Assembly: GCA_004123355.1 (NCBI GenBank)
Contig: SCHM01000008.1
Coordinates: 1,049,501 to 1,113,500, forward strand
Reading direction: 5' to 3'
Length of the DNA: 64,000 bases
From: Amphirosellinia nigrospora
Lineage: Eukaryota; Ascomycota; Sordariomycetes; Xylariales; Xylariaceae
Both the position numbers and the translations under genes were made by a program. Numbering within the stretch: the stretch's first letter is position 1; every line of letters starts with the position of its first letter. Shown piece after piece: positions 286-22,843 of this stretch. Below the pieces are notes generated by a model. The model saw only the letters and a program-made list of their open reading frames with translations. It was not told where the DNA came from and made no database searches.

Positions 286-1306
286 CTAAGCCTCTACTCC
301 AATAGCCGCCAAGAGTTGCTTGCTGGGTTTCATTTGCTTTTGGAACCGCTTGACAAAGAGATGGCCAACCGTTTCTTTGCTTTTACCAGGTTCTTCGAAC
401 GGATTGGTGGCAAAGATGTCGCCATGCCAGGCTGTGACGGTCGAGTACCGCTCCACTCGAGCTTTGTTAACAACGCGGTGATGTACAGCCTTATACACAT
501 TTCCAGACCAGCCAGCAAGCATGTCTCCGCAGTTGATAACAAACCTGTCCTCCACGGCAGGAACACTTACCCATTCCTTCTCATCCTCCAGCCAAATTTC
601 GAGAGCCTCTTTGCCAGGTTCCTGGAGCAAGACCGTGATACCACCCCAGTCATTGTGCGCGCCGAGACCGAACTGGCCCTCGGCGGTATCTTCCGGAGAA
701 GGATAACGGAGGAGGTTCATGCCTATCAACGGCCGTTTCGAAAAACGCTCCATTGTGCTCGTAGAGCGATCGAGGCCTTGAATCAACATTTCCCAAAGCA
801 GCTTCCCCATAGCGGCCGTCTTTTCGTAATACTCCCAGATTGGCTGGCGGAACTCATCTTCGGGAAGAGACGGCCACTGGTTGGGCCCGTAAATCCCGCC
901 CATCTCAACCTCGGGGTCGTCTTCGCAGAAATAGTAGGACTAATATGGTCATTAGCTACAGATTTCATGACCACCGACATGTCTGCTGGGGCTTACCTCT
1001 TTTGCGTCCGGCATAGCTTTACCGTCGCGACTGTGGGCACCGGAAGCTTCGTACCCTCGACGCAGCGACTGTTGAAAACAGATATCTCCATCTTCTTTTC
1101 TTTGGGCTGGCTATAGAACCGCTCGGATGCCTGGAACATACTACGTTGTAGGCTCACGGGATGCCATGACCGGTGCACTGGAAGAAGCCAACTGTCTTGA
1201 ATGCATCCCGAACCTGTGCAATGACTTTGGCCTTGTCTTCAGGTGAAGTTGGATTGAGATACCCACTGATGTCAATCAGTGGGAACTGGGCAGCCTTGTC
1301 AGACAT
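286..1306 (-). CDS. Isopenicillin N synthase-like Fe(II)/2-oxoglutarate-dependent oxygenase
   Basis: Member of the non-haem iron oxygenase family that hydroxylates, desaturates or cyclises small molecules; here probably a tailoring enzyme for the neighbouring PKS-NRPS product (inferred from position). The start is the ATG at 1306 (MSDKAAQFPLIDISGY). Exon 1 runs to 997, an intron covers 940-996, and exon 2 runs to the stop at 286; about 321 residues, normal for the family. The N-terminal DIOX_N part contains GFFQCTGHGIP. The C-terminal jelly-roll carries the iron ligands HND (AHNDWGG) and the distal His in VHHRVVN, followed by RYS, the usual 2-oxoglutarate carboxylate-binding Arg-x-Ser. Exon 1 has two single-base frame breaks, near 1157 (just after GHGIP) and near 1060; both keep strong family similarity on each side. 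Divergently transcribed from the PKS-NRPS with a 498 bp shared promoter. The substrate cannot be told from sequence. Confidence 0.85.
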
Positions 1307-1557
1307 ATTGGTGACTGTTTCCAATAAATCGTCTATTGCAAGATAACAGAGCCAGAATGAGAAATGGTAAAAAACCTATAGATCGACAAATGCGCTGAAC
1401 TCTATGGGGTCGTATTGTACTATGACTATAAGAGTATTTGAAGAGTTGATAAAACACGGCATTTCGGTGCCCGAATACATAATGACCTCATGTCTTATCT
1501 TGGAACACTCTTTATTATCATCTCAGGAAATGCGTTCCGTCGTTTGAGGATTCGGGT

Positions 1558-1568
1558 TCGGCTACCGA
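1558..1568. promoter_or_regulatory. Candidate AflR-type regulator site TCG-N5-CGA
   Basis: The sequence TCGGCTACCGA is an exact TCG-N5-CGA palindrome and also an inverted CGG-N3-CCG pair, the class of site bound by dimeric Zn2Cys6 proteins; TCG-N5-CGA is the published AflR consensus. It lies 252 bp upstream of the oxygenase ATG and 237 bp upstream of the PKS-NRPS ATG, close to the middle of the divergent promoter. With six fixed bases, about 0.12 chance hits are expected in 500 bp. An AflR-like regulator is encoded 16 kb away at 16978-18277. Binding is inferred, not shown. Confidence 0.5.
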
Positions 1569-1804
1569 CACGGGGGCGCCGTTAGCTAACCGGGCCGCAT
1601 GGCGGGGTGCAGCCGTGTGGGGCCCGAATTCTATGAATAACACCTAGCCTGTAAACCACGTGCATGGAACCATTAGACCGGGACGCATCGCCTCAAAACA
1701 AGAGCAGATCACCATCTCTTGAGATCCAAATTCTATTATTCATTCATTCCACTCTAGCCCTTCTACCTACACACTTGTCCTCGTTTCAACCAATCGCTTC
1801 GAAA

Positions 1805-4800
1805 ATGTCTCAACCTAGCGACAGAGCAGAGCCTATTGCAATCGTAGGAAGCGCTTGTCGTTTTCCTGGATCTGCAAGCTCGCCATCCAAATTATGGACA
1901 CTGCTGTCAAAGCCTCGTGATCTTGGCTTTGAGATCCCATCAGATCGATTCGGCAAAGGCTTCTATCACCCAAATGGTGCCCATCATGGAACCACCAATG
2001 TGCAACATGCGTACCTGTTGGAAGAAGACATCCGCATGTTTGATGCTGCCTTTTTCAATATCCATTCTAAGGAAGCAAACTCGATCGATCCGCAACAGCG
2101 GCTACTTCTGGAAACAGTTTATGAAGGTAATCCAACTCCGCGACTAGTTCCGGAATTAAGCTGATTTTTTTTTGTTCTTCTCAGCCTTGGAAAGCGGCGG
2201 TCATACTATTGAAGGGCTCAGGGGCTCTGATACAGCCGTTTACACTGGCACAATGAGCGTTGATTGGATGGACCAAAGTGTCAGGGACTTTGACACCGTT
2301 CCTCAGTATTTGGCCACGGGTCTAATCGGGCCATCATCTCCAACCGCGTTTCCTATGTGTTTGACTGGAGGGGGCCCAGCATGACTATTGATACAGCATG
2401 CTCCTCCAGTTTGATTGCCGTGCACCAGGGAGTGACTTCCCTGCGTGCAGGAGAATCCCGTGTTGCCGTAGCATGCGGTACTCAGGTTATTCTTAACCCA
2501 GAGCAGTTTATTGCGGAAAGCAAGCTGCAAATGCTGTCACCGACCGGCCGGTCACGCATGTGGGATAAGGATGCCGACGGCTATGCTCGGTAAGTGGATT
2601 TTTAAGCCTTCATTAGGACATAGCTGTGATGCTGACCTCGGTTTCTCGCAGTGGCGAGGGTACCGCTGCGATTATAATGAAGAGGCTCAGCGACGCAATC
2701 GCAGATGGGGATCACATTGAGAGTATCATTCGTGAGACCGGCACGAACCAAGACGGCCGAACCCCTGGCCTTACCATGCCCAGTTCGGAAGCGCAGTCTG
2801 CATTGATAGACCGGACTTATAAGCGCGCTGGGCTGGACCCAGTCAATAATCCACGTGATCGACCTCAATACTTTGAGGCCCATGGTACCGGAACCCAAGC
2901 CGGCGACCCAAGAGAAGCCGGCGCTATTTACGAGGCGTTCGGTCGTCATATTCATCCATCCGAAACCCCTTTGTATGTAGGGTCCATTAAGACCGTGATT
3001 GGTAAGTGATTATGTAACCCGTTCATTTCATCTACGTATGCGCTACAGCCGATGTTTCGATATGCGTCACCATGGGACATTGGAGATCTATCTATTATGA
3101 GCAAGTTTAGCTTACTATGTCTCTCACGCAGGTCACCTTGAGGGCACCGCTGGTCTTGCTGGTCTTCTCAAAGCCTCCGCGAGTATCCAGAATGGATACA
3201 TCGCACCAAACCTTCTGTTCAACACTCTGAACCCAAAGCTCGAGCCCTTCTACAAGAGTCTAAAGGTGCCGACGGAATTGACCCCTTGGCCCGAAGTCCC
3301 TGAAGGAGTGCCCCGACGCGTTAGTGTCAATAGTTTTGGTATGTTGCCCTTCGCTACTCAACTCCGTAGCCCAGTAATTAACCTTTCCATCTTTGAATGC
3401 ATGTAGGCTTCGGTGGTAGCAATGCACACGCGATCTTAGAACAGTACTCTGGGTCGCTTGAAATTGAAAGGTCCAGTTCCATCGATGTCACGAATTTCAC
3501 ACCATTCGTATTTTCCGCAGTGTCTGAGGCTTCTCTGGTTGCGCAATTGCGGGCCTACTCAGATCATCTCAAAATCCACAATAACATCAACCCCTACGAT
3601 CTAGCCTGGACACTCCAAGCAAGAAGGAGCCACTTCCCACTCAAGATCGCGTTTTCCGCTCTTACAATTGAGCAGCTTGTAACAAAAATTGATGAGAAGC
3701 TGGAGACGCTCAAGGCGAAACCGGGCACCACTCTCGGAGTCCGTGGCGCTTCCCGGCAGGCTACTGCCTCCCCTCGCATACTGGGGGTTTTCACCGGTCA
3801 AGGTGCGCAGTGGGCATCTATGGGAGCAGATCTAATTCGCTCCTCTGAGTTTGTACGCCAGCGAATTCTGGACCTCGAGAACTCTTTAGCCTCTTTGCCT
3901 GCTGCTGATCGACCAGAATGGAGTCTAACGGAACAAATCCTTGCTGGGAAAGAGACCTCACGACTTTCTGAGGCCGCATTCTCTCAGCCTCTTTGTACCG
4001 CAATCCAAGTCGCTCTGGTGGATCTTCTCCGTACTGCTGGAATCAATTTCACCACCGTGGTAGGTCACTCATCTGGTGAAATTGCGGCAGCCTATGCGGC
4101 AGATTTCCTTTCCGGCGAAGACGCTATTCGCGTAGCCTACTATAGAGGATTGTACACATCCTTGGCAGATGGTGGTAGCGGCCAGAAGGGTGCTATGCTT
4201 GCAGCGGGAACTTCTTGGGAGGACGCCCATGAACTCATCAACCTACGGACCTTCAGGGGACGCCTTGCCGTCGCTGCCCACAACTCTCCAGCAAGTGTGA
4301 CTTTGTCAGGTGACGCCGATGCGATCGTCCATGCCAAGAAGATCTTCGACGAGGAGAAGAAGTTCGCCAGGCTACTTCAAGTGGACCAAGCCTACCACTC
4401 TCATCACATGCTACCATGTGGTGACAAGTATGTCGGGGCTTTGAGAGCTTGCGGTGTCCGAGTCAAGAAGGATCGAAACAGCTCTTGCGTTTGGTATTCC
4501 AGCGTGAGTGGTAGTGACGAGCCGGTGGCTCCCGTCGAAGAGATCCAAGATGAGTACTGGAGAGACAACATGACCAAATCAGTCTTGTTCGCAGAGGCTG
4601 TGAGGAACGCGCTGGCTTCGGATGACCAAATCAATCTCGCTCTCGAGGTTGGTCCACATCCCGCCCTCAAGGGCCCCGTGGCACAGAATGTTGGCGATGA
4701 CCGATCCACTCCTCTCTCTTATAGCGGCGTCCTAGCCCGTGGTAAGAATGATGTCGAGTCTTTTGCGGACGGCCTTGGCTATGTCTGGACACAACTCGGC

Positions 4801-7800
4801 GCCGTGGGTGTCGATTTCCAGTCTTATGCAAAGGCTGCCGCGGCAGGGTCGAAATCAGTTCAGCCACAATTAGTGACAGGTTTACCCCTTTATCAATGGA
4901 ATCATGACAAACCCTATTGGGCAGAATCACGTCGATCCAGGAGGATTCGTGCCCGTTCAGAGCCAAACCATGAAATTCTGGGCAGTCTATCACCTGACTC
5001 CACCCCACAAGACATGCGTTGGTCAAACATACTGAAGGTATCAGAAATGCCGTGGCTCGCCGGGCATCAAATCGAAGGCCAGATGATTTTCCCGGCCGCT
5101 GGATATGTCGCCATGGCACTTGAGTCGTCCAAGATTCTTGCGGCTGAGAAGAGTGTTAAGACATATGAACTCTATGACTTGTCCATTCCTCGAGCAACCG
5201 TCATAGAGGATGCCGACAATGCTAGCGTCGAAACCCTTGTCACATTGACAAAGATTCAATTCCACCATGATGATACGGCGACTGCTGATTTCCGTTGTTA
5301 CGCACTACCCGTCACCGTCACCGGATCAAAGCAAGAGATGTCTATCAATGCTACAGGCACTGTGAAGATAGTATTCGGGGAGCCAGATGTTGACGCGCTC
5401 TCCTCTACACCTGTGGAAGACTTCAACTTGCGCGGAGTTGACAGTGACGAGTTCTATGAATACCTCGCCACGCTTGGGTACGGCTATACAGGTCCATTCA
5501 GAACATTGACATCAACACAGCGTCGACTTGGTCACTCTAGTGGTCTGATAGACACTTATGATTATGCGGATTCCGAGCCATCCAGGTACCTCATTCACCC
5601 CAGCACCCTCGATGTTGCTTTCCAAGCCTCGATTCTTGCGTACACCTCCCCATCAGATGAGCGTCTTTGGGCTCTACACGTGCCAACAGTGATTGGAACG
5701 ATTAGAGTTAATGCAGCAACGTGTGGCTCACCGCCTCCTGCTGGGTCTCGCATCCCAGTGCATTCGATCCTCGAGGACTCTGAGGCTTTCTCTGGGTTCA
5801 TCGAGCTGATGAGCGAAGATGGCCAACACACCATGGTTCAAGTTGAAGACTTGGTGATCAAGCCATTGGCTCCGGCGGCAGAGTCCGACGACCGTGTCAT
5901 GTTCACCCATACGAAGTTTGCTTCAGCCGTGCCAGATGGGGCTCTTGCCTCCGATGGTCGACAGCCGTCATCCTACGAAATCGACTTGAGCATGGTTTGC
6001 GAAAGGCTCTGTTACTTCTATATTTCAAAGTGGGCTGCCGAGCTTACCGAAGAGGAGTGGAAGAACGGCCCGCCGCATTTCCTGCATCTTCGGGACTGGG
6101 TGAAGCATGTTCGCCAAAATGTCTCCAGGGGTAAAAATCCACATATTAAGAGGGAATGGTCAAAGGACACTCCTGAATTCATTGAGAAACTGATCGAACC
6201 ATACCGAGGACGGCAACGTCAAGATTATCCTCGCTGTGGGTGATAACCTACCCGCCTCTGTGCGAGGCGAGACGACAATCTTGGAGCACATGGTCAAGGA
6301 TGACATGCTCGAACAGCATTACAAGAAGAGTTTAGGAGCGGAAGTTGCCAATGAGTTCTTGGCTAATATGATGAAGCAAATCATCCATCGTTACCCACAC
6401 GCGAAGATCCTCGAGATTGGTGCTGGAACTGGCGGGGCCACCAAGGCGGTCCTTGACACCATCGAAGGCGCTATGTCGTCTTACACGTACACCGACCTGA
6501 GTGTCGGTTTCTTTGGCCTTGCTGAAAAGCTTTTCGAGGCTTACAGCGACAAGATGGAGTTCAAAACATTCGATGTAGAGAAGGCACCAAAAGGCCAAGG
6601 ATTTGAACCCAACTCCTACGATATCGTCATCGCTTCGAATTGTTTGCATGCCACCGCATCACTTGAAACGACATTGACAAATACGCGAGCGCTTTTGAAG
6701 CCTGGTGGCTATTTGCTGATCTTGGAACTGACCATGCCCTCGAGATCATTCGCACCAACACCATCTTCGGAGTACTTCCCGGTTGGTGGCTCGGCGTCGA
6801 TGATGGCCGGAAGTTGTCACCGACCATCACTCGCGGCGCTTGGCACTCGCAACTACGCAAAACAGGTTTCTCAGGCATTGACACAATCAACATTGACGTT
6901 AGTCCCATTGCCTGGCCAGCTTCGGTTGTCGTATCTCAAGCGGTCGACGACCGAGTACAATTTTTGCGCAAGCCGTTGTCCGCGCCGTCTACTTCGGTCC
7001 CTATTTATATCGAGAGCCTTGTCATCCTTGGAAATGGTTCTCTAGAGCTTGCAAGGGTAGCTGAGGAGTTGCAAGAACACCTGCAGTCATTCTGCGGCGA
7101 GGTCGTCATTTTTGATAGCTTACCGACTGAGGAAGAGGCGTCTATTTTGAATCCTATGAGCACGTTCATCAACCTGGTCGACCTTGACTCGCCCATTTTC
7201 GAGGATATCACGGAAGAGAGGATGGAGGGGGTGAAGAGAATGTCCGAGCTGGCCAAGAATATCTTATGGGTCACACAAGGTGCTTTGGCACACGAGCCAT
7301 ACCACATGGCAAGTCTCGCCTTCTGCCGTGCATTGCGCACAGAGGCGCCACATGTTAGCTTGAATAACCTCGACATCGCGGACGTAAAGCACGACAACGT
7401 TTCGAAACTCATCGCAGAGCATCTGCTGCAGCTCTATGCCCTTGATGAGGGAGCATGAACCCCAGCCGCTTCTATGGTCTAAGGAACGCGAAGCCTTCAT
7501 TGACGATGGAAAGATCAAGATTCCTCGCATGGTCGCCGATATCAACCGGAATGGCAGACTGAACTCCGTCAGACGACAAAGGTCACAAAATCCGTGATTG
7601 AGTCCAGCGACAAAGTCTCGTTCTCAGCACCGAGCGGCGATTCTCCGGCCTCTCTGGTCAACCAACCAGCTCTCGGTGACCAGGCAAGCCCCATCAAGGT
7701 TGAGTCCTCGAGCACAATGGCACTTCAGGTCATTCCAGGCACTTCCTTGTTCGTCGCTATTGGAAGACCAGATGATTCTACAGAGAGTCCCACTGTGCTG

Positions 7801-10800
7801 CTGTCGACCGCGAACACTAATCAGCAGTCACCAGTAGCGAAGACAGCTGCCCCTAACTCCAGCAAGACGGCTCACTCACCAGAGGAGCTTTTGATTCTGG
7901 TGGCGAGCGAGTTACTCGCAACCACTCTGGTTGAGAAGTTTCTTCAGGCGATCACTTACTGTTGCATTGTTCGAAGGAAGACAAACTATTGATTGCGGCC
8001 TTATCCCGGCGTATTTCAGACCCAAGTATTCGTCTCAGCATCACATATGACTTAGTAGAAGCCGCCAGAGACTCGCTAGGGCCAGCTGTGCTGAAGATTA
8101 ACGACAATACACCTCGACACTTTTTGCGGAAGACACTTCGCGACGCAAAGCCTTCACACTATCTTGACTTGACAGCTAGGCCTTCTTCTGACCAATATGG
8201 GCACATCTAGGACTTCGCATCAGTCAAGATTTGCCTGCTAGGTGCAAGCGAATTGATCAATCCACTTTGCTCCAATCCCAGTCTTCATTGCCTCTTTCAT
8301 ACGACCACGATATCTTGGTGGGTCGGCTTGAGGATGCGGTTACGAAGGCAACTGCAACTTCGACTGCTCCGGAGGAATTCCAAAATTTGGTTATCCAGCT
8401 TAGTCGGATCGAGGAGCCTTCGACTCAATACCACGCAACAAGTGCTATTCACTGGCCTTCGGACGGGCTGGTCAAAACCAATGTGCGTTCTCTAGATGTC
8501 TCGGGCTTCTTCTCAAAAGCGAAGACGTATGTCTTAGTTGGCCTCAGTGGCTCGATCGGCAATCGCTTTGTGAGTGGATGGTATCAAATGGCGCCGGCTG
8601 CGTTGTTTTGACTAGTCGGCGTCCCAATGTCGACCAAAGATGGGTCAAGTCTTTCCAGGGGTCCGGCAGTACTGTCAAAGTACTCCCCATGGATGTCACT
8701 GACATCGACAGTGTGGAGAGCGCTGTAGAGACCATCCGAGAGTCTTGTCCCCCGATCGCTGGTGTGGCGCACGGTGCCATGGTCCTCCACGATGCTCTCT
8801 TTGCCTCAATGTCGGTAGACAAAATGCAGCAGATCCTCGGACCAAAGATCGATGGAGCAATCAACCTCGAGAGCGTGTTTAGCGAAGATGACCTTGACTT
8901 TTTCGTCATGTTCTCTTCGGTATCGATGGTTTGTGGCAACGCAGGCCAATCGTTGTACGCTGCCGGCTGTGGTTATTTGAACGGCTTGGCCCGGCAGAGA
9001 CGCAGGCGCGGCCTTGCGGGCTCTACTTTCGATATCGGCCGTGTTGCCGGTCTTGGTTATGTCGAGTCAGCAGACCAGGTCGTTCGCGATCAGTTGATCG
9101 GACTCGGTCTCAAGCCCATCAGTGAGGCGGATCTCCGCAATGCGTTCGCAGAGACCATCTGGGCCGGTGTCCCGCAGCCTCAGGACACAGATACACTCCC
9201 CGAGGCCGTCGTGACGATGGGCGTGCGTCATTTCCGTGAAGACGAGGACGTCAAAGGACCGTGGTTTACTAATCCCCTTTTCTCACACTGTATCATCGAG
9301 AAACCTAAGAATCAGTCTAGCTCTGGAGATCAACGCAAGGAGAACTCTCTTCCCTTGAGTCAGCAACTCGCCCTAGTTGCTTCGAAGAAAGAAGCTTTGG
9401 AAGTCATAACCGGTAAGACGCTCTAAGGAAGTCCCCTGTTGGAAATCAGTAATTATGCTAACAAACATCCAGACTCTTTCGCGGATAAACTAGGTATTAT
9501 GCTGCAGCTTGGTGATCAGGCAAGTGATCGCGATGCGCCCCTCAACGAACTAGGAATCGACTCGTTGGTCGCAGTCGAAGTGCGAGCCTGGTTCTTGAAG
9601 AACCTCAAGGTCGACATCCCGGTGCTCAAGATCATTGGAGGAGCTTCCATCACAGAGATCTGCGAGAGAGCACTAGAACTCCTACCCCCGACCGCCCTTG
9701 GTGGCATCGACCAGCCAAAGGAAAAGGCCAAGGCTCCGGAACCCGCCCCCAAGCTGGAGCTCAAACTACATCTGCGGCTGCTGGATCAGGATTCGCCATC
9801 AAGTGGAAATACTTCCGAAGCGATTTCGACGATCGGAGACTCGTCTCCTAATTCCAAAGAAGCGTCGACAGTGCAGTCTTCTATAGGCTCTGAGGTGGGC
9901 GATGACGAAGCTACCGCCAAAGTTCCTCCGAAGACTAATGTAAAAGCAGGAGCACTCCCCCTGTCCGACGACCCAAAAAAATTCTAAAGACCGTTCCTAT
10001 TTCCCTAGCACAGTCTCGTTACTGGTTCCTTCAGCATCTACTCGCCGACCAAAGCACACACAACGTCGCCACCTACTACCGCATCGAGGGAGACCTTCGC
10101 GTGACCTGAAACGAGCCATACGTCTTGTTTGCACTAGGCACGAGTCCCTGCGCACCTGTTTCGTGGCAGATGAGGCCGAGAGAGCCACCCAGCAAATTAT
10201 GCCCAGCTCTCCACTTCAACTTGAGTGTAAGACAATCCAATCCGAAGACGAAGTCGAAACCGAGTATGCTAGAATCAAAACCTACGAGCTCGACATGGAG
10301 AGCGGCGATTTGCTGAAACTGGTTCTCTTGACGCTCTCACCGTCGGTTCATTTCCTTCTTATGAATTACCATCACATCATAATGGACGGCATCAGCTGGC
10401 AAGTCTTCCTTGCCGACCTGGAGAAGGCTTACAACGGCCAACATTTCGGGGCACCCCCACGTCAATACCCAGAATTCTCTGTCGCTCAGCGCCAGGCCTT
10501 GGAGAGTGGAGCGATGGATGAGCAGCTCAACTACTGGCGGCAGATGTTCCCTGCCCATGACCCGCCATCTGTCTTGCCACTGCTACCCATGGCTCGCGTC
10601 AGCGCCAGAACGTCGTTGAAGGTATACGATACCCATCAAGTAGCGTTCCGACTAGAGCCTGCCTTGCTAGCGCGAGTCAAGTCCTTTTCGAAGGCCAGCG
10701 GATCCTCGCCGTTCCATCTTTATCTAGCTGCCTTCAAAGCCATGCTCTTCAGCTTCGTGGACACACCAGATCTCACAATGGCGTCGCTGATGCCGGTCGC

Positions 10801-13800
10801 TCCGAGCCCAATCTCCGAGGCAGTATCGGGAACCTGCTGCCCCTGAGATTCCGCCGTCAAGATAATCAAAAGTTTAACGAGGCCATGGCCGAGGCTCGAA
10901 ATGTCCATTATGCAGCTCTCGAGAATTCTCGGATACCTTTCGATGTCCTGTTGGCCGAGCTGAACGTGGCTCGTTCCTCGTTGTATAGTCCATTCTTCCA
11001 AGCATTCCTTGATTATCGTCAGGGTTTCCCAACCAAGCATACGTTCGGTAATACTGAATTTGAAATCAAGACCGTCAACCACGGCCAGAGTGCGTACGAC
11101 ATCACCTTGGACGTCACGGACAGCGCTGCAGACACGGTTGTTATGATACGAGCCCAGAAGAGTCTCTACGATATGACGGCGACGGTTCTATTTTCTGAGA
11201 CCTTTACTCACTTCCTCGAAACGTTGACCAGCGATCCGTCCATCTCTCTTCAGGCCACTCCTCTCTATGGCGAAAAACAGCGCCCAGGCCGTCCGGTTGG
11301 CCGGGGCAGCAGCATGTCCTCTGACTGGCCTGCGACACTTCCCCATCGCATCGACCAGGTTGCCCGAGATAATGGAGACAAAGTCGCCCTCATTGATGGA
11401 TTTGGCAATGAACTGAGCTACAATGATATGACAAACCGTATTGAAGCAATCGCTGAAGCCTTGGAAAGCAAGGGGTCGGCAGCGGCTCTCGAGTGCCTGT
11501 CTTCCAACAAGCAGCTTCAGACTGGGTATGTTCCATGCTCGCCATCATGCGACTGTGTGCTGTCTATGTGCCGCTGGACCTCCGGAATCCTCTGCCCCGT
11601 TTAGCGTCAGTTGTAAAAGACTGCGACCCGGCAGCTATCCTCGTGGACGATACTACCCTGAACGATGTACCGCAGCTTGGCGTCAATGGCGCCCGTGTCA
11701 TCGATGTAACTACCGTCGGTTCCAAGGCTTCGGCGCACGTTGAGAACCGCGCCAAGGGACCATCGCCAGCTGCTATACTTTACACTAGTGGTTCCACCGG
11801 TACACCAAAAGGTATCGTAGTCACACACTCGGGCCTGCGTAACGAGATCGAGGGCTACACGAAGATGTGGAAATTGGGTGCCGAGCGTACTCTGCAGCAG
11901 AGTGCATTCACGTTTAATTCCTCGGATCAGTAAGTTCCATACCTTCGCCATCAGCAGCTACAAATATTAACACATGATTATCTAGGATATACACGGGTCT
12001 CACCAATGGTGGCAGTGTATATATCGTCCCATGGAGTGCACGTGGTAACCCTCTTGAAATCACCAAGATTATGCACGAGCAGTCCATCACATATACTAAG
12101 GCAACGCCATCCGAGTATCTGCTCTGGATGCAGTACGGAGGTGATGCACTCCGCCTTGCGTCAGAGTGGCGTTCTGCCTTCGGTGGCGGCGAGAGTTTGA
12201 CGACCACTGTTACTCAAGAATTCTCTAAGCTTAATCTGCCCAACTTGCGTTTCTACAATTCCTACGGCCCTACGGAGATTTCAATCTCGTCTCACAAGAT
12301 GGAGATTGCGTACCGCGACACGCCAGAGCTGGAGAGTATGGGTCGTATTCCGTGCGGCTACTCCCTGCCCAACTACCATACCTACATCGTCGATGAGGAG
12401 CTGAAACCGGTCCCCATTGGGAGCCCCGGCGAGATTTGCTTGGGTGGCGCCGGTGTATCTCTGGGGTACTTTAAGAACCCAGAGCTGACAAACAAGCATT
12501 TCGTACCCAACCCCTTTGCTACGCCCGAAGACATCGCCAATGGCTGGACACGGATGTACCGGACGGGTGATATCGCGCACCTGCGCGAAGACGGCGCCAT
12601 GGTGTTCCACAGCCGCATCGCAGGCGACTCGCAAGTCAAGATCCGGGGTCTACGCATCGAACTCAGCGACATCGAGAGTAACATAGTCAAGGCGGCCGGC
12701 GGAGCGCTCAACGAGGCCGTAGTCACGCTGCGCGAAGGCGAGCCCGAGTTCCTGGTTGCACATGTGGCATTTGCGCCGAACCACGGCGTCGCAGATACGA
12801 CGGCCTTTTTGGAGCGACTGCTAAGTAATCTGGATGTGCCTCAGTACATGGTGCCCGTGGCGGCGATTCCGTTGGACAAGTTCCCCCTTTCGAACCACTC
12901 CAAGGTCGACAGGAAAGCATAAGGCGTTGCCGTTGCCCAAGAGAACGCAGGCGGCGCAACAAGATGCAGAGCTCACGGAGACGATGCTACAGCTGCGTGG
13001 GGCCTGGCGTGAGGTCCTGGGCCAAGTCAACAAGGACCTTGGACTTGAGATCGGTCCCTCGACCAGCTTCTTCCTTGTGGGCGGCAACTCGCTTTTGATC
13101 ATCCGCCTTCAGTCTCAAATCCGCATCACGTTCAATATTTCACTGCCCCTGTACGATCTCCTGAGTGCCAATACACTCAGCGAAATGGCGCACAAGATTG
13201 ACGAGTCGGCGACCGTAGCTCCCATTGACTGGGATGCTGAGACTGCCCCTCCCGCCATCCCTTCGTTCCTCGACAAGATTTCTAAGACTCGCCGTCTCGC
13301 TCAAGAGAAAAAGGCCGGTAAGACGGTCGTTGTCAGTGGAGGCACAGGCTTCCTAGCAAAATACGTCATCCCACAACTAGCAGCTCGGTCTGACGTGCAG
13401 ACAATCTACTGCATCGCTGTTCGAGATCCGGCCAAGTTGAACAATGCATCACCCAAGATAAAGTGCCACGCCGGCGACCTTTCGACGCCACTCTTGGGGC
13501 TCAGCACAGAGGAATTTGCCGACCTGGCGACCCAGGCCGATGTCATACTACATATGGGCGCTGCGCGCTCCTTCTGGGACAACTACACGTTTTGCGACCC
13601 AGCAACGTGCATCCGACCAAAGAGCTAGTCAGTTGGCTGCTGCCGGAAAAGTCCCAATCCTTCATTTCGACTACAGCCGTTCTCGGTGACGGTGATAGTG
13701 TTGACAGCGTCTCAGCTGCTGACAACGAGCCGGCTCTCGACGTACCAACGGATACACGGCGAGCAAGTGGGCCAGCGAGCGGATTCTTGAGCGCTCCTGT

Positions 13801-14212
13801 AACAAGCTCGGAGTTCCTGCTCCATTTACCGATTCGCTCGCAACAACCAATGAGCTGCCTCCACGGAGCTCCTGGATTTGTTCGCACATACGTGGACGTG
13901 ACCAAGGCAATGCCTGACGCAACCGGCTGGGCCGGAAGCATGACTTGATTCCTGCACGAAGGTCGCGAGCTGGCTCTCGGAGTCTATCGTGGTAACGTTG
14001 AGGATAGCGGGACCAATTTCATACACTACCCAGGGCAAGTTCGCGTCTCGGTTGACGAACTGATGCCGCACCTCGAGGGGCAGATGCGCAAACGAGACGA
14101 TCTTACACGTGTTCCCTTACTGAAGTGGACTGGTGTTATCAAGAGGGCTGGGTTTGACTATTGCATGATGTCTCATCAAGCCAGCATTGAGAAGGAAACT
14201 AAGCTAGAATGA
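1805..14212 (+). CDS. Hybrid PKS-NRPS (KS-AT-DH-cMT-KR-ACP-C-A-T-R)
   Basis: Iterative highly reducing polyketide synthase fused to one NRPS module; it builds a methylated polyketide, joins it to an amino acid and releases it with a C-terminal reductase. The ATG at 1805 ([15 protein letters not shown]) is chosen as it directly precedes the KS. Introns: 2127-2184, 2590-2651, 3002-3131, 3339-3406, 9413-9472, 11930-11985; about 3990 residues. Approximate domains: KS 1830-3480 (DTACSSS, EAHGTGT, GHLEG); AT 3780-4700 (GHSSGE); DH 4960-5880 ([16 protein letters not shown]); cMT 6240-6930 ([11 protein letters not shown]); non-catalytic ER/structural region 6950-8500; KR 8515-9290 (VGLSGSIG, Lys, Ser, Tyr); ACP 9473-9700 (GIDSL); C 9980-11260 (HHIIMDG); A 11330-12920 ([21 protein letters not shown]); T 12960-13200 (GGNSLL); R 13310-14150 (SGGTGFL, YxxxK). 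Frame breaks near 2318, 6215, 6734, 7453, 7582, 7955, 8195, 8567, 9978, 10108, 10778, 11474, 12918 and 13590-13960 look like base-call errors. The product is not predictable. Confidence 0.93.
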
Positions 14213-16977
14213 GGAGATAATCTTGGCCAGGGAGTATTTCACATTGTAGTTTATGGTATAGCTTATATTTTAACTTTTCTCGAAATTTTCTGCGTCTAGT
14301 TTAACTGTACAGATAGGGTCAATATATACAATAGAATAACAAGTACCTTTGTCCTTGAAGACCGAAGTTAAGTGCCAAGATAGGTAGACTCTAAATGCAC
14401 ACATATACGGAGGTCCGCAAGGCTCTGGGATGCATATGAGGCCATTTCAATAGAAAAGATATTCATGCCACTGTCGCTTCATAAATGATTATTACTGTAG
14501 TTGATTTGAATCTACTATGTATTCTAAGCCCGCAACACAAGCCCTTGTACATGACCGCCCCTACTCTTCGCCCAATCCTATAAGCTCGGATAGAGGGTTT
14601 GAAGATAGTTCAAATTGAGCAATAAACAACTCCTCCCAAAGGTGCCACGAAGATCTAATTTATTATTCTCTAGGCAGAGGATGCTCGGAATTTTATGCTC
14701 GAACTTCATCCTATTTTCCTACAGCCTCGCGGACCTCCGTGGACCTGAATAGAGACCTGTGCAGCCGGAGTTTGTATGTCTCGGTAATCTATCTCGGCTT
14801 TCGGCAAATGACTAAGACTACGACATTCGTACAGCTCTGTACAACTCCGTCAGCCTCTTCGTAGGGTAGTATTCAACGGGTTCTGTGCGAATCCTTGTGA
14901 CATCACGGGCTTAAACCATTTCCAGATGCGGTACAACTCGAACGATGATGGCGTGGCATAACTATCTTGCCTTTGGTTCTAAAAATCACCGACCTGGGGT
15001 ACAGTAGCACACTCATGACAAATGATATATCTTCCAAAAAGGCGGACCCGGATGTTCCATGGGATGTATTAGATGTGGTTGGATGTGGTTGATGTGGTCG
15101 ATTGTTTCGGGGTGATACCGAAACCGATACGCGTAACATGGGGAACGGCAAACCGCATCCTTTCAGTCTGCGCTACGGTGCGGGAAGCACTATCTCATCT
15201 TACATGGTACACGTGTATATGTAGGTTGCTGCCATCGGAACCAAATTTCTATAAGGCCCAGACAGAGCCCAGAGCCACACCCATCTGACACCCATCTGAC
15301 ACCCATGCAGCTCCCGTGAATATTAGGTATCAGTACCCGTATATACGGTATGTACCGGCCAAGAGGATGGCAGATTTTAGCTCCACGCTAGAGATGATTT
15401 GGTAGTCCAGTGAATATCAAGTCTGATTTAACCACGTCGTATAAGTTTAACTGATTGACCGCTGATCTGCTCCCCATCGGTTTAATTGATCTACGAACGC
15501 GGATCTAGCGTAACAATTATCATGCTGCTGTACGGCCTATAAATAGTAAATAGCTGTTTCTTCCACTCCACTTACTTAAGTACTTACTATAAGAGCTGCA
15601 GGATTCCAACCTACGCGGTTTCCCTTCACAGCAAAGCATAGTGTCCAATTACCCAATTGCACCATGATTCTCGCCTCATGTTTTCTCCGTCTGCCAGCGG
15701 CTACATTCCATTTTGTCAGCGTTACAGTGCTGTGCCGCAGATTAGTCTATATGTGCAGTGTAGCGTATAGCTTTAGTCCCGTATGCTACTTACTAGGTAG
15801 CACCTGGGTAGCAAACTATTGTTGTACTATGTACTTGACCTAGATATACTTCATCCTCGTGATCATTGTAAACAATCTTTATACTTAGAAAAGATAATGC
15901 GTGTACGTTGAAAAGTTGGTAAGCTTTACTAAGGGTAGTGCGGCTTAAATCCGTATGTGGCCGGAGGTTTTTGTACACGCGTAATAAGGAAGGGAAAGGA
16001 AGCCTTGGTAAGGTTCCGCCGTGCCGGTTAGCCGGAGTCCTGGTCAACGACGGAGGGTTGCAGCAGGGTTGCAGGTGTGAGTGGGGTTTCTTGACTAAAA
16101 TCGGTTAGTTTGGCGTGACCGTCCGACCGGTATTGAACAGGCGGGCATGACGTAACGCACTGTGTCTATAGCCGCAAAGGTATCGTTCCATCTACTAGTA
16201 AACAACGACAAGAGTTAGTCTGCAGGTAGAAACATAGATACAGATTAGCGATAGTAGCCCCTTTTCTCTTCGCCGCCAGGGATTAATAAACTGTTGGTGA
16301 GTAGGGTAGTAGAAAAAAATTAAACGCAGCCTTTGTGCAAATCTGTATGTCTATCATGATAGCCCTGCTACCACGGGACGCATGCTCTAATAAACCCCCA
16401 CATATGTGGAGAAAGGTATACGTGTAACGATGTTCTGTATCTGATATGCTAGCTTTTATCCAACACTTCATGCCCCTCCAGCCGGTGTAATAAGCCTGCT
16501 ATCCATCACTTGATGTGTCATGAAGCCACACTATCCAAACCACACTATCGCGAAGCCAACAGAGCCGTGAACAAAGAGATATTCTGTATATAGCCCAGTT
16601 ACGTCTACGGAGGTAGATTTAGAGACCTTCGCGCAACAACAAGCATATATGATCTATCCCATATATGGCGGCGCCCCTGACATGATGAGATAGGTGGTCG
16701 AGTCAGGGTTCTTGATTTGCAGGTGCTTACAACAATAGGCCAGGCCACGGTGCTTATTGGAGACTTCAAGGGCTCTCTGATGTATTTAATGAATGTTAAG
16801 ATTAATCGCTAGAGACTGAAAAAAAAAATGACTAGACACAGAAGAAACGCTAATGTATATATCTTATGTCCTTTATCGTCTATGGCGTTAGATGAGATCG
16901 ACAGACTCGCTGTCGGGAAGTTTATACAGGTAACAGTTTAATGTGTTTAAAATGGGTGCGTTTTCAGAGGTCGGTCG
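14213..16977. other. 2.8 kb intergenic region, no gene recognised
   Basis: Lies between the convergent 3' ends of the PKS-NRPS and the regulator gene. Open frames here are short and resemble no family I know. It holds small direct repeats: an 11 bp unit (ACACCCATCTG) repeated at 15277-15307 and GATGTGGTT-like units at 15071-15100. An unrecognisable decayed transposon cannot be excluded. Confidence 0.5.
15277..15307. repeat. 11 bp tandem repeat, 2.8 copies
   Basis: The unit ACACCCATCTG occurs twice in full and once in part (ACACCCATG) with no spacer. It is intergenic, and no function can be read from it. Confidence 0.8.
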
Positions 16978-18277
16978 TCATAACGGGCTCCCTTCCTTGT
17001 TAGTTCGTGACACCCGGTTCTTTACTTTCTCCTCGAGGGTTTTCAGACGGTTTTGTCCCTCTCGAGAACAATTGTCCCTATGTAACCCCGCACTCGTCGA
17101 GATGAAGAGCACTTTCTGCATTATTTTGATGACCGGCCGCAGCACATCCAGTATGACTTGCGACCGGAAACGTTCCTGGTCTTTGAAGCCCATACCGAAT
17201 CCGCTGAAGTCGACTTCGTGGAAGCCAGGTTCTATCAGTTCCATGGAAAGGGGCCGTTGGGCATCCGAGGTGTCGGCGAGGAAGTCGGCGCAGCCGGCCT
17301 CTAATATCTCCACAAGTTGATACATTATGATGTCGAAGAGAGCCAGGCATTTCGTGTTGTGACCCTCGAACTGTCCGTTGACCAGAGGGTCCAGTTTCCT
17401 GGTTACCCCTTTAACGATGCCAAGTATAAGATCCAGCACTTTCAGCTTGTCGGCTTGATACTTCTCTAAGCTGAAGATGATTTGGGAGCAAGCAATGACG
17501 CACTGGTTGTTGCGCTCGCTGTCCGGAGCCGTCGTCTGGGGTGGCGTCGTGGTGGCGGTGGTGCTGGAGGTGGAGAGCGTCGTAATGAAAATTGACTGTT
17601 GTGCGTACGGGGAGGCTGATAGCCAACCCCAACCCGGTGGGGTTCATGGTGCTCGCAGTATGCGAGAGGGAAGGGTGGGACGTCCCATTGGGGCAACCTG
17701 GACTGATTTGTGAAAGCTGCTGCGGGCGAGCGAGATCCGGCGGTGTATCCCCCAGAGAGCCGAATATGTCGTCTGCATATATTTCATCCAAGCTATAGGC
17801 GTCGTCCAAGTCCCCATTCGACACGGTAGACCAGCCGATCAAGGTATCATCGAAGAGCCCCATGTGTTCCGTGTCGGGCACCAGAGAACCTGGGGTACTC
17901 GACGAGGCGCGGTCCAGGTCGATGGCATCTCCGGTGTTTAGATCGTCCGGCGTTTGGGGAGACAGAGGTGTTGTCCCTGCATTGGCGATCTCTCGCATGA
18001 CTGCGCCTCCTTGGTTCATCATCGCTCTTACGTCTGGGTGTACTAGCTTTCTTTTCCCTCGCATGCCCGGGACTCGACCAACTCTCGACTCGGCGAACAC
18101 GCATTTAATACCTCGACTCTCGCAGCGGCTGCAGCCCGTCTTTTCACCATCGCATTTCACCTAGTCGGATATTAGTGGTTACGCTCTCTCGTGGTAAGAC
18201 GCTCTCGGCAGAATCACCTTGCTGGCGGCGCATTGGTTACACGCCGCTCTCAACTTTCCTAGTTTTTCTCTGAGCAT
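16978..18277 (-). CDS. Zn2Cys6 transcription factor, AflR-like
   Basis: Probable pathway-specific activator of the adjacent PKS-NRPS locus. The start is the ATG at 18277; exon 1 (18218-18277) encodes MLREKLGKLRAACNQCAASK, then a 57 bp intron (18161-18217, branch-like CACTAAT) and a long exon to 16978; about 413 residues. Splicing completes a canonical binuclear zinc cluster C-x2-C-x6-C-x6-C-x2-C-x6-C, from CNQC to GIKC, followed by a basic stretch (GRVPGMRGKRK). The C-terminal half has the helical pattern typical of AflR-type regulators: QCVIACSQIIFSLE, LDLILGIVK and FDIIMYQLVEILEAGC. The frame changes once within about 17540-17640, in a Pro/Ser/Thr-rich linker next to C-rich runs; conserved sequence lies on both sides. 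An exact TCG-N5-CGA site sits in the oxygenase/PKS-NRPS promoter. That this protein controls that promoter is inference. Confidence 0.87.
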
Positions 18278-21026: not shown

Positions 21027-22843
21027 TCAATCGAGTTCAAGCTGCTCATACATGTCGTCCCCTAGTGCATCTTCTATCCTCTCCATAATCGCCAACACCT
21101 TCTCCTCTTCGAGTCTACGTCCCACGACCTGAATGCCAACCGGAAGGCCGTGCATATCCTCGGCATCGTATAATTTGTAAGCTCCCCGAGCCACGCCGTT
21201 CAACTTTCGGATGTCAAACCCGGTCGGTAATTTATCAAGGTCCTTGTCGACGTGGGTGATGGAATGCAGCCGGCAGTGTAGTCGAGCTGTGACGATTAGC
21301 ATAGTTATCTACATGATATGTACAAGGGGACGTACCACATTGAAAAGGAACGTATATCCGCAACTACTAACGGCATCTTTCATTCCGTCGTGCGGAACCG
21401 CGGGGGTGGCATTGGTATGTGTCAGTATGAAGTCGATATCGACCTTGTTCCACCAAGCGTACCATTCACTTCGGTACGCCTCACGCTTAGCCACGAGTTG
21501 CCAGTTCTCATAGGCCGTCTTCTGATGCCAGTCCCTGATAAGCCCGGCCCATACATTGTCCCTGCGAATGTACTTCACCCAGAGGTAGTAAATGTACTTG
21601 AAAGGGCGCGAGAGCCTCATGAGCCAGTCCAATTGGTCGGCTCCTCTGTCATTCCACTCCCCAGGTCGCATGAAGGATTTGAACATCTGGCAACCATCCG
21701 CGTTCAATAAATGTGCGCCAAGGTACAGTGCTTCGTATGGTGAAGGCGGGTCAATCTCTACAATTTCGTGGCCCGCTCGCTTCAACGCTGCTTCCGTCAA
21801 TTCAAGGGCACGGGCACAGGCTGGGCTGGGGTCTACGACGCCGTCGGTCCTCATGATACCGACACGGAACTTCTTCTTTGTCGCATACTCTTTCTCGACG
21901 CCGGGGCGCCAAGCAAGAGGATGGACGGAGTAATCGTACTTCCATGGCTGCATGCCGATCACGGCTCGGGTGAAGTAGGTTAGGTCGTCTAGGGTACGGG
22001 CCATAGGGCTGTAGACGCTTGGCACGCCTTCTTGGCCCGGCATGCTGGTTGCGAACCCGGCTTTTGGCCATCTTCCCGTCGAACATCGAAGCGAATAGAT
22101 ACCGGAGAAATGAGCGGGCACTCGGACACTACCGGCAACATCACTGCCGATGCCAATCCGTCCGCCCAAGGCCAGAAGCGCCGACTCACCACCGTCGAAC
22201 CACCAGGCGAGTATTTGCTGTTGTGGGGGTTCGTACACCGTCCCCACACGTCGTTGGTGGACTCGAAACTGAGTAGTGTGATAGGGCAGTTGGTCTTCAC
22301 GTAAGGGATGGCGCCAGCATCCTTGAGCAGTCGAACAGTCGGGCCGTCCTCGGTATACGTCTTACCAACGAAACTGCTGAACCCCACGGTCGAATCAAAG
22401 CCGCCAACGTTGATGGTGTCCTTCAAGCTGACTGGGATGCCGGCCAGGGGTCCTTTGAAGTTAATGGAGCCGTCTCTGATCCAACCCTCGGCCTCGGAGA
22501 TCATGACCTCGGTCACACAATTGGTCTTCTCGTGGGCTTTCAAGGCGACCTTGCCATAGGTGTCGAGAAGGGCCGAGGGCTGAAGCACACCCTTTTGCAC
22601 ATCCTCGACGAGGTCTTCGATTGGCCTATCCACGGTCTCCAGGTCCAAGGCCGTAAAGGGCCCGCGATACCGGCTGAGAGCCTTGACCCGCTCTATCCGC
22701 TCATTCTGCTTGAATCGGCTGATGATGTGTAAGCTGATGACAGACAGTGAAGGAACACGAACCCGGCTAATAGTAGATGCGAGATCCGTTTATGAAACTT
22801 ACCAGTCGCGTTTATGCTGCAAGTAGTCGAGGAAGAACACCAT
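21027..22843 (-). CDS. Amidase-signature family hydrolase
   Basis: Amidase-signature enzyme hydrolysing an amide of unknown identity; about 560 residues, usual for fungal general amidases. The start at 22843 gives MVFFLDYLQHKRD; introns are 22719-22802 and 21287-21335; the stop is at 21027. The Ser-cisSer-Lys triad is visible: Lys in PVSLKDTINVGG, the cis-Ser in the YSPGGST segment, and the nucleophile Ser in GSDVAGSVRVPAHFSG. The C-terminal motif HGLPVGIQVVGRRLEEEKVL is strongly conserved in this family. Two frame breaks occur, near 22200 (inside the GGST motif, one G short) and near 21260; both look like base-call errors. Closest in type to fungal acetamidase/fatty-acid amide hydrolase-like proteins. 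No signal peptide is evident; the location is presumably cytosolic. There is no clear link to the PKS-NRPS, from which 2.7 kb of non-coding DNA separates it. Confidence 0.9.

Follow-up and report, generated by a model that had tools for sequence, protein, structure and literature searches.

The window analyzed here is a 64,000-nt stretch of the Amphirosellinia nigrospora genome (C10:1049501-1113500), which we examined together with flanks of 40 kb (left) and 20 kb (right) and against the whole assembly of 48.1 Mb in 11 contigs; negative coordinates lie leftward of the window, and the contig position is 1049500 plus the coordinate. In a search with 221 residues of ribosomal protein uL3 from this genome, the entries of Chaetomium thermophilum and Neurospora crassa reach 460 and 458 bits and the other entries listed no more than 393, a pattern suggestive of a filamentous ascomycete. 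Close to the left edge of the window, a gene with a 2OG-FeII_Oxy domain and a PKS-NRPS gene point away from each other across a 498-bp shared promoter, an arrangement already described for an IPNS-like oxygenase by the first-pass annotation, and Pfam coordinates confirm its further observation that these two genes and a Zn2Cys6 gene occupy a fairly compact stretch (Table 1).

Table 1. Genes and TTCGGN3CCGAA palindrome sites at the locus, ordered from left to right.
Feature	Position	Strand	Evidence or context
P450	-17957 to -16490	+	Pfam
MFS transporter	-11098 to -9407	+	Pfam
One-mismatch palindrome copy	-7008
LovC-type trans-enoyl reductase (trans-ER)	-6709 to -5526 (C10:1042791-1043974)	+	ADH_N, solved-structure matches
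Exact palindrome	-5203		Between CmcJ-type gene and trans-ER
One-mismatch palindrome copy	-3882
CmcJ/NvfI-type oxygenase	-3604 to -2601 (C10:1045896-1046899)	-	NF041278
Exact palindrome	-2235		Upstream of CmcJ-type gene
IPNS-family 2OG-Fe(II) oxygenase	286-1306	-	PF03171, DIOX_N, PDB phmmer, residue alignment, junction analysis
Exact TTCGGN3CCGAA palindrome	1463-1475	.	Divergent promoter 1307-1804; also a TCGN5CGA site
One-mismatch palindrome	1557-1569	.	Divergent promoter 1307-1804
PKS-NRPS	1805-14212	+	Pfam on separate pieces, junction analysis; frame-broken in assembly
Zn2Cys6 regulator gene	16981-18277	- (start 18277)	Zn_clus match, three-frame view
Amidase	21312-22789	-	Right of cluster, housekeeping genes next

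Pfam matches to separate pieces of the PKS-NRPS, from 1805 to ~14,212, give the order KS, AT, DH, methyltransferase, KR, ACP, C, A, T and a reductase-type NAD-binding domain, and this KS-AT-DH-MT-KR-ACP-C-A-T-R series fits a fungal highly reducing PKS-NRPS. A cis ER domain is absent from the pieces scanned, which leave out ~7990-8190, and a separate gene for a LovC-type trans-ER lies nearby. The AT and DH domains are covered by one 948-codon open frame, and the HHxxxDG and YxxxK motifs are kept. The first-pass annotation had described a full megasynthase of ~3990 residues, and all domains are indeed present in order over a span of 12.4 kb that makes this length plausible, but in this assembly they do not form one readable frame. 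In the A domain (window 11457-11930 and 11978-12919), the A4 stretch reads F-N, compared with F-D in the four readable of five PKS-NRPS-like paralogue loci; by eye, the stretch is also one residue shorter than in those four. An A4 stretch lacking the aspartate would fit a hydroxy-acid substrate, a reading that is suggestive only and is weakened by the adjacent intron and indel errors. For A. niger, the available part of PMC5381763 reports that CaaA uses malic acid. The R domain did not discriminate between modes of release, with YxxxK present here and in four of the five paralogue loci.

Five other loci in the genome carry both KR and C matches, which makes several more PKS-NRPS genes probable. 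The best-scoring matches elsewhere were 39% (KR) and 37% (C) identical, with shorter pieces reaching 49%, so the KR and C searches found no close second copy of this gene.

At several points the PKS-NRPS changes frame where there is no room for an intron. Junctions anchored on profile matches show a net change of -7 nt in the KS, two breaks of net -4 and -1 in the condensation domain and one of net +7 at the adenylation-carrier border; a frame change in the KR was seen by eye, and reading the whole 12.4 kb by eye gives ~15 breaks, of which only 4 are profile-anchored. The 2OG oxygenase gene contains a break of net -1, with at least one break in its N-terminal third, and the Zn2Cys6 gene has one frame change near 17.55 kb, also seen by eye. 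Other junctions, with net values of +47 in the A domain, +49 in the P450 and +74 in the CmcJ-type gene, are intron-like and are likely introns. Four neighboring genes (MFS, P450, trans-ER and CmcJ-type) showed no break. A path finder based on codon bias, which allowed both introns and frame shifts, failed to distinguish between them and was abandoned in favor of the profile-anchored junctions: it hid most or all of the PKS-NRPS breaks in invented introns, and one of its training stretches had been read in an incorrect frame with 31 stops.

The same kind of junction rule was applied to nine chaperonin-family loci (13.5 kb, from 24 of 25 match rows), where 15 junctions comprised 8 frame breaks, 4 intron-like junctions, 1 in the same frame and 2 that were unclear; six of the nine loci were affected, and five of the eight breaks were one base short. 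Across 47 KS loci in the genome (from 111 of 120 match rows), 64 junctions comprised 14 strict breaks in 10 loci, along with 28 that were intron-like, 13 in the same frame and 9 that were unclear, and 10 of the 14 strict breaks were again one base short. Chaperonin genes are essential in fungi, so the breaks within them make an assembly with single-base losses the simplest reading, and the PKS-NRPS breaks are most likely assembly indels in a gene that is intact in the organism. The alternative is a decaying PKS-NRPS pseudogene in a relic cluster, for which the many by-eye frame changes over 12.4 kb and the four neighboring genes without seen breaks can be cited. The ~15 PKS-NRPS breaks exceed the 8 in the chaperonin loci, although the former were counted by eye and the latter by profile anchoring, and this higher count together with the unbroken neighbors keeps decay in consideration. 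However, junctions of the same type occur in the chaperonin and other KS loci, and both the long open frame that spans AT and DH and the conserved HHxxxDG and YxxxK motifs speak against decay, which we regard as improbable. As a more general observation, this assembly seems to have frequent single-base losses in coding regions, chaperonin genes included. Gene finders may render such losses as false introns or pseudogenes, and frame breaks in this assembly should not be taken as either.

The divergently transcribed 2OG oxygenase has its best solved match in TraH (PDB phmmer, E 1.1e-49), with 82 of 185 aligned residues identical (44%); 63 of 160 aligned residues are identical to SpoC, and a search of the genome with the piece that matched TraH gave four other matches, 30–42% identical over 62–142 residues. 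A short piece of the lid loop, where residues 99, 112 and 114 lie, had no PDB match. The available part of PMC13083874 describes TraH as the oxidative decarboxylase in the pathway to terrestric acid, with Y195 and R280 as 2OG ligands, K191 as the proposed proton source for decarboxylation and Y214 and F286 clamping the tetronate; it also gives clade logos in which position 191 is K or R and position 214 is Y or F, and reports that ThnC, whose substrate in the trihazone pathway is a tetronate, is 44% identical to TraH. In the oxygenase studied here, the H-x-D...H iron pattern (TraH H211, D213 and H270, assigned from the alignment) is kept, as are Y195, R280 and H288, and the enzyme would thus resemble TraH and ThnC in how it binds iron and 2OG. 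The positions equivalent to K191, Y214 and F286 hold N, W and A, which departs from the K/R at 191 and Y/F at 214 of the TraH/ThnC decarboxylases (clade A4). This changed substrate pocket makes TraH-type decarboxylation, and hence TraH's own reaction, unlikely. The residues of the protein lead us to expect an active 2OG enzyme that has a different substrate or outcome, and hydroxylation or desaturation of another substrate would be more likely than decarboxylation; with all three positions replaced, the comparison to TraH may tell little about what that substrate is.

Two further genes of interest lie just left of the window. The first encodes a CmcJ/NvfI-type oxygenase, as indicated by NF041278 scores of 95.4 and 100.8 bits for its two pieces, both over the cut-off of 80; the one piece searched against solved structures gave weak matches (7eus, E 1.7e-10; NvfI, ~9e-5). 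The second encodes the trans-ER, for which two solved sequences came up at E up to 1e-8, namely LovC (3b6z) and 3gqv, an entry for an enoyl reductase, with ADH_N matched and ADH_zinc_N just below its cut-off. Beyond them, a carboxylesterase gene joins the MFS and P450 genes 9–18 kb left of the window, with a BTB gene and an LRR-like match that is weak (18 bits against a cut-off of 27) in between, and near -20 kb there is a second Zn2Cys6-like match (20.2 bits, just below the cut-off of 21). No family was found in the pieces scanned between the trans-ER and MFS genes. On the right, the Zn2Cys6 gene starting at 18277 is followed by genes for an amidase, a ubiquitin-like protein, Vps53 and a tRNA synthetase, and the amidase and housekeeping genes likely mark the right boundary of the cluster.

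We observed that the trans-ER, the CmcJ-type gene and the divergent promoter are accompanied by copies of a palindrome, TTCGGN3CCGAA. One copy lies ~290 bp before the trans-ER gene, and the copy at -5203 sits between convergent 3′ ends. Genome-wide, the exact motif occurs 54 times in 48.1 Mb, against 52 for its reversed control, with the positions of the three copies at this locus taken from the local scan of 124 kb; in the window alone the two sites with up to one mismatch are not above chance (1.86 expected; 60 of 100 shuffles reach two). Three exact copies fall within 6.7 kb at this locus; when 54 sites are placed at random, such a triplet arises in 26 of 20,000 sets. The palindromic extension is common to 3 of 18 sites, as in 23 of 20,000 draws, both figures being for a motif that was extended and defined after inspection of these very sites. 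The 124 kb scanned contain seven sites that are exact or have one mismatch, six of them from -7.0 to +1.6 kb. Neither kind of site occurs from -22 kb to -7.1 kb, and there is no near copy upstream of the MFS or P450 gene. The shared palindrome suggests a four-gene core of trans-ER, CmcJ-type oxygenase, 2OG oxygenase and PKS-NRPS, without the P450, for which we see moderate support.

The adjacent Zn2Cys6 protein (Zn_clus, E 7.5e-5, 23.2 bits against a cut-off of 21) would probably control the core genes through TTCGGN3CCGAA; the upstream region of its own gene contains no near copy of the motif. The first-pass annotation called this regulator AflR-like. AflR binds TCGN5CGA, and two such sites occur in the 498-bp divergent promoter, a number reached by 20 of 2000 dinucleotide shuffles. 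The zinc cluster and these sites agree with that label, but the AflR C-terminal domain was not detected, with no Pfam family found in the C-terminal piece, part of which the frame break may hide.

The same annotation proposed a minimal locus made up of a PKS-NRPS, a single 2OG oxygenase and a regulator, which would be unusual unless genes lay left of base 1, and it saw no P450 or trans-ER in the window. The absence of these and of a transporter holds for the scanned pieces of the window, where the ORFs contain no further tailoring gene from the PKS-NRPS up to the amidase at 21–23 kb, but the proposal fails once the contig is extended leftward, the very check that the annotation had proposed: a trans-ER lies 5.5–6.7 kb, an MFS gene 9.4–11.1 kb and a P450 16.5–18 kb left of the window. 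A second non-heme iron oxygenase, the CmcJ/NvfI-type enzyme 2.6–3.6 kb left of base 1, removes the idea of a single such oxygenase, and with palindrome copies beside both this gene and the trans-ER, a minimal locus is very hard to sustain. A larger cluster, bounded by the P450 at -18 kb and the Zn2Cys6 gene at +18 kb and taking in the MFS and esterase genes, is compatible with the reading that we favor and differs from it in the borders. The MFS, P450 and carboxylesterase genes and the Zn2Cys6-like gene near -20 kb speak for this extent, whereas the palindrome-free interval from -22 kb to -7.1 kb and the intervening BTB gene and weak LRR-like match speak against it, and we hold it to be possible but on the doubtful side. 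Membership of the MFS and P450 genes in particular is uncertain, because the MFS, BTB, esterase and weak LRR-like genes separate the P450 from the core, and neither the MFS nor the P450 gene has a near palindrome copy upstream. Our preferred reading is a fungal gene cluster for a secondary metabolite, of the PKS-NRPS plus trans-ER type, with the four-gene core and with frame breaks that are assembly errors, and we consider this probable.

Known tetronate clusters show that the architecture is less unusual than first annotated, as tra, thn and tho all pair a PKS-NRPS with a 2OG oxygenase (available parts of PMC13083874, PMC8648635 and PMC12843353). The tra cluster for terrestric acid in Penicillium crustosum comprises, among the genes named in the accessible text of PMC8648635, the PKS-NRPS TraA, the trans-ER TraG, the 2OG enzyme TraH, the flavin enzyme TraD and the P450 TraB. 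It shares with the present locus the combination of PKS-NRPS, trans-ER and IPNS-family 2OG oxygenase, TraH being the closest solved relative of the latter, but differs in the pocket residues given above, in having no CmcJ/NvfI-type gene among those named there, and in TraD, for which we found no counterpart in the scanned pieces. The thn cluster of Trichoderma, for the trihazones described in PMC12142736 (accessible part), is likewise a PKS-NRPS cluster with a TraH-type oxygenase, ThnC, which decarboxylates a tetronate (PMC13083874, available part); this likeness follows the published description of the cluster and not a direct comparison of sequences. The tho cluster for talactones in Aspergillus flavipes, as far as the available text of PMC12843353 goes, encodes a PKS-NRPS, the trans-ER ThoB, the alpha-ketoglutarate oxygenase ThoD, a regulator, a P450/P450-reductase fusion, two FAD monooxygenases, an SDR and an oxidoreductase; thoE and thoB were enough for product formation, and added tailoring genes yielded nothing more. 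It matches the present locus in PKS-NRPS domain order, trans-ER, 2OG oxygenase, P450-type gene and regulator, but it also has the two FAD monooxygenases and the SDR, and no CmcJ-type enzyme is named in that text. The present cluster belongs to a known kind; its 2OG oxygenase is a divergent TraH relative, and its CmcJ/NvfI-type oxygenase is an extra. A literature search with partial coverage found no description of this gene set, which may still have been described elsewhere.

From the domain content and neighboring genes, we infer a pathway in which the highly reducing PKS, with C-methylation, would work together with the separate LovC-type enoyl reductase, and in which the C-A-T-R module would add one amino or hydroxy acid before chain release. 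The product would most likely be a tetramate or tetronate, and the two non-heme iron oxygenases may oxidize the ring or its side chain. A more specific proposal is that the IPNS-family oxygenase with its re-cut pocket and the CmcJ/NvfI-type oxygenase replace P450 tailoring and perform a novel oxidation on an acyl tetramate or tetronate, under common regulation with the PKS-NRPS and trans-ER; we offer this tentatively and think it rather unlikely. The 2OG oxygenase is in any case a natural TraH-family variant without K191, paired with a second non-heme iron enzyme, and the role of K191 could thus be probed outside mutants.

Further left, at -25735 to -25010 on the plus strand, we noted a DUF3435 piece (PF11917, E 1e-7) in which only the C-terminal part of the model is matched; DUF3435 is the domain of Starship captain recombinases.
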